Shown here: positions 2,528 through 43,279 of the stretch, piece by piece
Layout: every line of letters starts with the position of its first letter
How positions within the stretch are numbered: position 1 is the first letter of the stretch
Assembly (NCBI RefSeq): GCF_003008425.1
Contig: NZ_PXOQ01000007.1
Coordinates: 62,001-126,000, forward strand
Origin: Aurantibacter aestuarii
GTDB taxonomy: Bacteria > Bacteroidota > Bacteroidia > Flavobacteriales > Flavobacteriaceae
DNA: 64,000 nt
Reading direction: 5' to 3'
The notes under the pieces: model-generated
Told to the model about the DNA's origin: nothing
Databases searched by the model: none
The model's input: the letters and a program-made list of their open reading frames with translations, nothing else
Translations under genes and position numbers: made by a program

Positions 2528-3595
2528 TTACTCAATTTTTTTAACCACTGCTTTAGGCGCCTCTTTCCTGGTGCCATCAAATCCATCTACACCAGAAACT
2601 GTAGTGTATTTCATGACATAACGCTTTCCTGGATTAATAATTTGGTAAGCCGATTGACACATTAATGTAGCTTCATGAAAACCGCATAAAATAAGTTTTA
2701 ACTTTCCTGGATAGGTGTTTACGTCTCCAATAGCAAAAACACCAGGGATATTAGTCTGATAATCTAAACTGTTATCTACTTTAATAGCATTTTTTTCTAT
2801 TTCTAGACCCCAGTTAGCAATAGGACCTAATTTAGGAGACAGACCAAATAATGGAATAAAGTGATCGCATTCCAACTCATACTCCTTATCTAAATGAATA
2901 TCATCAGACTCTTTAACCACGACACCTGTAACTTTATCGGCACCTAAAAGACCAACAACTTCAGCTGGTGTAATTAAATTTATTTTTCCTGCATTTTTTA
3001 ATTCCTGAACTTTTTCTACAGAATCTAAATGTCCTCTAAACTCATTACGTCTATGCACTAAAGTAACACTTTTAGCCACATCACTTAAAAAGATACTCCA
3101 GTCTAGAGCTGAATCTCCTCCTCCAGCAATAATCACTTTTTTATTGCGATACACTTCTGGGTCTTTAATGATATACTCTACCCCAACATCTTCATACTCA
3201 TTGATATTATGAATTTGAGGCTTACGAGGTTCAAAACTTCCTAATCCACCTGCAATAGCAACCACAGGTGCATGATGTTTGGTCCCTTTATTTGTAGTTA
3301 CAATGAAAGTCCCATCCTCTTGCTTATCTATAGTTTCTGCGCGTTCTCCTAAGGTAAATCCAGGTTCAAACTGCTTACATTGCTCCATTAACTTGTGCGT
3401 TAAGTCGCCTGCAAGAATTTCCGGATAAGCCGGAATATCATATATTGGTTTTTTAGGGTAAATTTCTGAACATTGTCCGCCTGGTTGTGGCAATGCGTCT
3501 ATTAAATGACATTTTAATTTTAATAATCCTGCTTCAAAAACAGTAAATAATCCTGTTGGTCCTGCTCCAATTATTAATATATCGGTTTTTATCAT
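2528..3595 (-). CDS. Type-2 ferredoxin/flavodoxin-NADP(+) reductase (YumC-like)
   Basis: A thioredoxin-reductase-like flavoprotein of about 355 residues. The FAD-binding GAGPTG is at residues 10-15, followed by LPQPGGQCSEIYPKK. A second dinucleotide motif AGGGDSALDW (near 160) binds NADPH, and AIGDVNTYPGKLKLILCGFHEA near 295 closes the FAD domain. The CxxC redox pair of true thioredoxin reductases is missing, which fits the type-2 ferredoxin-NADP reductase family that moves electrons between NADPH and ferredoxin. I chose the ATG at 3595; a longer reading from 3613 would begin inside or before the TAGTTTTG promoter box at 3618-3611. It lies downstream of the nfu gene on the same strand but has its own promoter. 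Confidence 0.88.
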   Translation of the reverse strand: MIKTDILIIGAGPTGLFTVFEAGLLKLKCHLIDALPQPGGQCSEIYPKKPIYDIPAYPEILAGDLTHKLMEQCKQFEPGFTLGERAETIDKQEDGTFIVTTNKGTKHHAPVVAIAGGLGSFEPRKPQIHNINEYEDVGVEYIIKDPEVYRNKKVIIAGGGDSALDWSIFLSDVAKSVTLVHRRNEFRGHLDSVEKVQELKNAGKINLITPAEVVGLLGADKVTGVVVKESDDIHLDKEYELECDHFIPLFGLSPKLGPIANWGLEIEKNAIKVDNSLDYQTNIPGVFAIGDVNTYPGKLKLILCGFHEATLMCQSAYQIINPGKRYVMKYTTVSGVDGFDGTRKEAPKAVVKKIE

Positions 3596-3610
3596 AAATT
3601 TTGTTGTAGG

Positions 3611-3618
3611 CAAAACTA
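3611..3618 (-). promoter_or_regulatory. Promoter -7 box of the reductase gene
   Basis: On the minus strand this reads TAGTTTTG, a full match to the Bacteroidota -7 consensus TAnnTTTG. It sits 16 nt before the ATG at 3595 and so argues against the start at 3613. Confidence 0.5.
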
Positions 3619-3653: not shown

Positions 3654-3745
3654 CCTGCGTTAGCGGTAGTAGTGGTTAGCTTTTGGCGAGCGTACGCTTT
3701 GAGCCAAAACTAATAACGGATAACGCGACCTGAAAGGTAACGCCC
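3654..3745 (-). repeat. Structured intergenic element, copy A
   Basis: A roughly 92-bp element that starts 5 nt after the nfu stop codon. On the minus strand it begins GGGCGTTACC and continues to AGGTCGCGTTATCCG. Then comes a hairpin (TTTTGGC at 3703-3709 with GCCAAAA at 3681-3687) that encloses a perfect 10-bp palindrome at 3689-3698, and it ends in CCGCTAACGC. GCGTTA and TAACGC (3721-3726 and 3657-3662) can close an outer stem. A diverged copy is at 43173-43279. Confidence 0.65.
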
Positions 3746-3750
3746 AAATA

Positions 3751-3987
3751 CTAAGCGACGTTAATGACTTCTTTTATATGTGGTGCGTGCTTTTTTATGG
3801 TCATTTCCACACCAGACTTAAGCGTCATTTGGTTAACACTACAGCCTACACATGCGCCTTGCAACTGTACTTTTACAGTAGTATCCTCGATAGATATGAG
3901 TAAAATATCGCCTCCATCGCTTTGTAAAAATGGGCGAATTTCCTCGAGCGCATTTTCAACATTTGTTTTTGTTTCTTCTGCTGTCAT
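3751..3987 (-). CDS. nfu: NifU-like scaffold domain protein (Nfu)
   Basis: A 78-residue protein consisting only of the NifU C-terminal domain, which carries or transfers Fe-S clusters in the cytoplasm. It shows IRPFLQSDGGDILL and the cluster-binding GACVGCSVNQMTLKSGVE, with the CxxC at about residues 46-49. It lacks the A-type N-terminal domain of longer NfuA proteins, as is normal for small Nfu proteins. It lies 3 nt downstream of the Mrp gene, so the two Fe-S cluster proteins are co-transcribed. Its 3' end runs into the structured element at 3654-3745. Confidence 0.92.
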   Translation of the reverse strand: MTAEETKTNVENALEEIRPFLQSDGGDILLISIEDTTVKVQLQGACVGCSVNQMTLKSGVEMTIKKHAPHIKEVINVA

Positions 3988-43172: not shown

Positions 43173-43279
43173 ACATTAGCGATTGAATCATTGTTGGAGC
43201 TCTTGCAAAAACTTTTAAAAGTGGCTTTCGCAAAGCAACTACACAAAGCGCGACCCGAATGTGTGAGGGAAATGCCCTA
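43173..43279 (-). repeat. Structured intergenic element, copy B
   Basis: A diverged copy of the element at 3654-3745, again directly downstream of a minus-strand gene (pth, 4 nt after the stop). On the minus strand it begins AGGGCATTTCC, continues ATTCGGGTCGCGC, then has a hairpin region with a perfect 12-bp palindrome at 43211-43222 flanked by TTGC/GCAA-like arms, and ends GATTCAATCGCTAATG. Order and end motifs match copy A; the middle hairpin differs in sequence. Confidence 0.6.

Follow-up and report, generated by a model that had tools for sequence, protein, structure and literature searches.

The element at positions 3657-3745 of the window, the whole stretch of 64,000 nucleotides of Aurantibacter aestuarii DNA that was analysed, was confirmed as a real, structured copy of an extended Flavo-1 family, a repeat of marine flavobacteria. 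It is located between the stop codon of an nfu-like gene and a ferredoxin-reductase-like gene, both on the minus strand. Kinship with other copies, a covarying structure, a patchy copy number, intergenic placement near stop codons and retention of sites were all observed. The Flavo-1 family itself had already been catalogued, but a three-way junction, a second core in the central arm and the exchange of arms at kept sites appear to be new; no account of any of the three was found in the main-text passages of open-licence papers. According to the best explanation, the chances of which we judge to be about even, the element is a structured DNA repeat resembling REP and ERIC sequences, whose sites have long been kept while its arms were exchanged. 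The question of what Flavo-1 does dates from 2010. Should it prove to be a structured DNA repeat whose arms can be exchanged, the label "small RNA" is wrong. Both cores, together with the sites found kept or empty, provide direct test cases.

Structure of the element and its relation to Flavo-1

The gene at 3751-3987 is presumably nfu, judging from the motif GACVGC and from its naming in the initial annotation, and the gene on the other side is one that we take to be ferredoxin-reductase-like. The element and its surroundings comprise the following features.

3657-3745, + strand (the Flavo-1 strand): whole element, a three-way junction of P1, P2 and P3, matched by Rfam, R1 and R2
3657-3662, + strand: 5' side of P1, GCGTTA, paired with 3738-3743, with matched changes among the copies
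3738-3743, + strand: 3' side of P1, TAACGC, the partner of GCGTTA, followed by CC
3663-3726, + strand: P2 arm, the part modelled by Rfam (covariation extends over the whole element)
3663-3668/3721-3726, + strand: base of P2
3672-3673/3716-3717, + strand: middle of P2
3677-3687/3703-3712, + strand: upper part of P2, with a bulged C at 3680
3689-3698, + strand: apex of P2, the perfect palindrome AGCGTACGCT that tops the central arm
3729-3737, + strand: P3 hairpin, CCTGAAAGG, with 83% of cells paired in the alignment
3751-3987, - strand: nfu-like open reading frame, its stop codon at 3751-3753, 5 nt from the element
2528-3613, - strand: ferredoxin-reductase-like open reading frame on the other side of the element
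43173-43279, + strand: second copy in the window, with the same frame and another P2 core (type II, GTTGGAGCTC), matched by R2

An Rfam search of the 64-kb window at gathering level gave a tRNA as the sole match. At relaxed thresholds Flavo-1 (RF01705) matched 3657-3745 over model positions 1-76 of 76 with 35.6 bits (E 8e-6 in its own genome). The gathering score is 42, and the copy is therefore a diverged relative of Flavo-1, not a gathering-level member. At E ≤ 10 the genome contained 37 places matching Flavo-1, and 25 of these reached the gathering score; among the last four, all with E > 0.05, two were recovered by models of the R1 type and two resembled chance. The element shares the P2 arm and the clade with Flavo-1, while the Rfam model, typed "Gene; sRNA", lacks the P1 pairing, P3 and the type II core. 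When 34 copies from the genome were placed side by side, the unit exceeded the Rfam model and consisted of P1, P2 and a short or variable P3.

Two models of the repeat were used. R1 was made from 12 copies including 3657-3745, which scored 87.5 bits as a member of its own model, and it found 45 places in the genome at E ≤ 1. R2 was made from eight type II copies, neither window copy among them, and gave 50.4 bits for the second window copy (43173-43276) and 38.9 bits for the first (3657-3744). The second copy was absent from the R1 matches in the genome at E ≤ 1. Since R2 nevertheless detects both elements, the pairing of 3657-3745 with 43173-43279 in the initial annotation was right.

The conserved ends and the outer GCGTTA/TAACGC stem proposed there were also found. 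P1 covaries, and its matched forms include GCGTTA/TAACGC, GCATT/AATGC, GAGTT/AACTC, CTGTT/AACAG, CGTAA/TTACG and GCAAA/TTTGC. When the 12 copies were aligned by sequence, 97% of cells paired and 14 of the 26 modelled pairs had double changes, in agreement with the suggestion that structure is kept more than sequence. Thirty-six cells were changed on both sides, compared with 10.1 in shuffles, and none of 500 shuffles reached the main scores. Moving the partner by one column reduced pairing to 45-49%, in a control that is favoured by the structure having been drawn from the same copies. The initial annotation had named an absence of covariation and of further copies as the outcome that would speak against it, and the covariation and the 45 R1 places clearly show the opposite.

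Type II copies have the P1, P2 base, P3 and ends of type I with the core GTTGGAGCTC...GCGACTGCC in place of the type I core. The R2 set had 14 cells with double changes, compared with 5.8 in shuffles (0 of 500), in fewer pairs than type I, and two of five covariation measures did not beat shuffles. The Rfam Flavo-1 model gave one weak match (25.2 bits) on the eight type II loci, and none to the second window copy at E ≤ 10. R2 had matches in 23 of 39 genomes, some of which were type I copies. The type II core is thus a sister form that Rfam does not describe.

Variant ends, TTAGCC...GCTCC, occur without P3 and with both cores (L024, L025, L037, L049, L050). The P2 apex of L040, L043 and L208 bears further small palindromes, for example GTTGAGCGNAGTCGAAAC, which look like other repeats landed there. 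Two similar copies with an unusually long P2 apex lie in opposite orientation 2.5 kb apart (L002 and L051; contig C4 of G000, at 698 kb and 696 kb).

Distribution, placement and exchange of arms

Of 60 genomes, 33 had R1 matches. The copy number ranged from 0 to at least 72, the latter in G034, which had 73 candidates, and the length of the repeat from roughly 75 to 190 nt. At least 118 stretches from named genomes contained the pattern AAAAGATATARYGKAAAGCSYGACC. Among the 80 of these matches listed, one was from a Pseudopedobacter MAG and the remainder were from Flavobacteriaceae by name or by genus, where Algibacter, Lacinutrix, Tamlana, Polaribacter, Olleya, Aquimarina and others are presumed to belong to this family. 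The relatives of the element found by R1 and in the named Flavobacteriaceae share the Flavo-1 trait of many copies in Bacteroidetes, and the impression in the initial annotation that related elements occur in many Flavobacteriaceae was borne out. That reading thus held for the ends, the structure, the kinship and the relatives; it missed the assignment to Flavo-1, P3 and the existence of two P2 cores. The copies are dispersed and patchy between genomes. Two of them, L072 and L073, are almost identical and have unrelated flanks. Three G034 copies near contig ends (L114, L118, L120) have a 5' flank in common, probably part of a larger repeat such as the end of an rRNA operon.

Placement, end preferences and promoter and terminator counts were determined with 113 copies, obtained from 118 matches by dropping two duplicate copies, L083:1859-1958, L164:1128-1256 and the reverse shadow L084:1513-1602. 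Genes were taken as open reading frames, not curated calls. A stop codon lay within 25 nt of 52 of 93 copies and a start codon within 25 nt of 13, counted by sides so that one copy may count twice; the 93 are those with long flanks, the G034 copies, with flanks of just 300 nt, having been omitted. Among 91 copies from named genera, a stop was nearby in 32 and a start in 14, and three were inside an open reading frame of at least 80 aa; the ends of long intergenic gaps in this set, from gap counts, comprised about 251 starts and 201 stops. The ends of the element are sharp, position -1 being mostly T and hardly ever G, with A at +3 and +4.

Copies antisense to the preceding gene outnumbered sense copies by 22 to 4 in G000 (n=32), 5 to 0 in the congener G001 (n=14) and 24 to 8 in the named genera (n=91), whereas the remaining relatives showed no such excess (9 to 12, n=47). 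A universal antisense rule was therefore dropped and the bias, strong in G000 and G001, is a tendency only. Intrinsic terminators beside the element were likewise rejected as a general rule, since terminator-like sequences were seen on the 3' side of 16 and the 5' side of 5 of the 113 copies. On inspection by eye the neighbouring genes were housekeeping genes in which no common functional theme was seen.

Orthologs of nfu were present in 37 of 37 genomes. When R1 was applied to 30 nfu loci, a match adjoined nfu in G000 and G001 only, and the other 13 loci with a readable nfu 3' end had no element. The G001 element has the same place and orientation and a similar P2 apex, but P3 is wholly different, a hairpin of about 30 nt in place of CCTGAAAGG. 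The same comparison was extended to further sites. Of 14 G001 copies checked in G000, nine had a copy at the same site, two sites were empty and three were unsettled. Conversely, of 12 other G000 sites queried in G001, six were kept and one was empty; the remaining five were, in our reading, ambiguous, or the single flank that was found had no copy close to it. In 12 of 14 site-matched pairs the G000 copy was closer to a G000 paralog than to its G001 ortholog. The core type differed in four of the 14 pairs (L007/L170, L202/L167, L198/L173 and L073/L240), and P3 was replaced with P2 unchanged in L062/L174 and L063/L169. The flanks of 13 site-matched pairs were near unrelated (66% as against 59% in mismatched pairs). 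This pattern would suggest gene conversion between copies.

Among named species and relatives, 25 locus pairs had a copy at the same site and in the same orientation, two were flipped (both involving L297) and two lacked a copy, a count in which absences are under-seen, the loci having been picked because they hold a copy. Four pairs with an out-of-range gap and three near-identical rows were set aside. With about 6,000 pairs distributed over 2,500 sites, we calculate that chance would account for two or three shared-site pairs. Sites and orientations are thus kept across species and genera while the apex and core of P2, and also P3, are replaced.

A local function is most plausible at one site, the gap between two genes that we take, from sequence features, to be metH and metF. 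The element was found there in five (G000, G002, G003, G012 and G006) of the 23 genomes that gave a strong match to metF, and also in Tenacibaculum, Winogradskyella and two Tamlana loci (L077, L093, L106, L109, L313, L316, L259, L307 and L382). All of these copies are sense, and the G006 copy is type II. G002 and G012 have two R1 matches each, and in both the best-match locus is this site. The retention of site and orientation across genera, seen in the 25 locus pairs, exceeds what a selfish repeat needs, and it may mean a local function, possibly of an RNA.

RNA or DNA

Of the standard pairs, 1.6% were G-U in a set of 205 distinct copies, compared with 6.6% in 21 tRNAs from the same loci, tRNA being just one RNA yardstick. 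Over the 205 copies G-U outnumbered A-C by 82 to 36, a count to be read with the lean to G-U of alignments fitted by covariance models. This excess is also expected of RNA and counts against the DNA reading. It was 56 to 14 in the first 118 copies and 27 to 22 in the 91 copies from named genera, a set chosen with an exact pattern in which part of P2 is fixed. Taken at face value, the excess would make the Rfam strand the one that folds; as proof it is weakened by the named-genera set, where it is missing, so that the claim is kept in a weak form, that the Rfam strand may be the one that folds.

A cis-acting RNA element at 3' ends or within operons, serving in either orientation in stabilisation, processing or attenuation, would account for the placement near stop codons, for the retention of site and orientation between genera (25 pairs alike, 2 flipped) and for the sense orientation of every metH-metF copy. 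An RNA made from the transcribed strand predicts that the excess reverses where the neighbouring genes are on the other strand, but in 75 copies with both neighbours so oriented G-U still exceeded A-C by 34 to 12, no different from the 20 to 11 in 50 copies with both neighbours on the same strand (Fisher p 0.45). The excess is thus independent of neighbour gene direction, which makes it less likely that the transcribed strand acts in 3' UTRs, and G-U is very rare altogether. The F. psychrophilum transcriptome report likewise describes Flavo-1 matches that are sense or antisense to transcribed regions alike, many of them in none, with no consistent transcription and no link with transcripts (PMC9723704). 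We consider a cis-acting RNA unlikely, if still a serious competitor. A family of trans-acting small RNAs, which is what the Rfam type implies, agrees with the entry "RNA: y, cis-reg: n", that is, probably RNA and not cis-regulatory, for Flavo-1 in the table of Weinberg et al. 2010 (PMC2864571), and with the 82 to 36 excess on the Flavo-1 strand; a further source counts Flavo-1 among the most abundant bacterial sRNA families without a function (PMC9029176). Dozens of divergent copies per genome, which in our own reading have no conserved unpaired seed outside the core, argue against it, as do the many F. psychrophilum matches outside transcribed regions noted above. Nor was the Bacteroidetes type of promoter enriched upstream, TAnnTTTG being present in 12 of 113 copies (7.7 in shuffles) and the full motif in 0 of 113. 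Together these points make a trans-acting RNA very improbable.

REP elements bind gyrase. A comparable site in the DNA, fixed in place, which serves a chromosomal protein or topology and either never moved or has ceased to move, fits the kept sites and orientations, the occurrence in both orientations relative to genes and the housekeeping neighbours without a shared theme. The patchy copy number between genera, the empty sites between congeners and the near-identical copies at unrelated sites indicate gain and loss, and render such a fixed site improbable. The single-sequence folding z was -0.94 for 3657-3745 and +1.12 for 43173-43279. Because these values are unremarkable, thermodynamics alone gives the element no support, which comes instead from the covariation and the further copies in the genome; a chance hairpin without significance would suit the z of merely -0.94, but the dispersed copies and the compensatory changes already refute it and its probability is negligible.

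The evidence thus leans towards a structured DNA repeat, and the reading that we favour is that the Flavo-1 element works at the level of DNA and not as a small RNA. It would then belong with small palindromic repeats such as REP and ERIC, and one of its strands would fold once it is single-stranded. A putative enzyme may once have distributed it to places immediately behind genes. Copies would have persisted there for a long time and been overwritten piece by piece by other copies, through copy-in or ectopic gene conversion. What keeps them there might be a local role of the DNA at the ends of genes, such as protein binding or relief of supercoiling, which is a guess. More tentatively, and with appreciable doubt, Flavo-1 could be one half of a modular, site-anchored system of structured DNA, not an sRNA, in which a constant frame of P1 and the P2 base carries swapped cores (the Flavo-1 and GAGCTC types), apexes and P3 at gene ends over long times, and one folded single strand is recognised by a putative recombinase or binding protein of the Flavobacteriaceae.

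Mobility and known repeats

REP sequences are dispersed, palindromic and intergenic and are often found past stop codons. The element resembles REP/RAYT systems in these respects, but it is four times longer, forms a three-way junction and has no linked Y1 gene. ERIC sequences of enterobacteria are imperfect palindromes of about 100 nt with conserved mismatches, intergenic, with a copy number that varies by species. The element is like them in size, imperfect palindromy, intergenic location and variable copy number; sequence and phylum are unrelated. We know of no counterpart among ERIC-type repeats to interchangeable cores and P3 at fixed sites. Integron attC sites were set aside, the order of their ends being opposite to that of the element.

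The initial annotation left the choice between a structured RNA and a small mobile repeat. Covariation established that the element is structured, and no transposase or recombinase tied to it was identified. The presence and absence of copies with sharp ends at matching sites, as in MITEs, was observed at the two G001 sites that are empty in G000. No clear direct repeat indicating a target-site duplication was seen at two empty/filled pairs, where the intergenic DNA is too diverged. Y1_Tnp genes were present in 21 of 60 genomes, by our tally 17 among the 33 that R1 matched and 4 among the 27 that it did not. Five genomes with 20-34 R1 copies each (G001, G004, G006, G018 and G037) have none, and small genomes tend to lack both; a Y1 transposase is therefore insufficient as the driver, and the linked or genome-wide matched Y1 transposase of REP/RAYT systems was not seen. 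The single Y1_Tnp (RAYT-like) gene of G000 (L008, C4:997969-1001157) is flanked on both sides by a different repeat, around GCTGGCGCGAGCATCATGCTCG.
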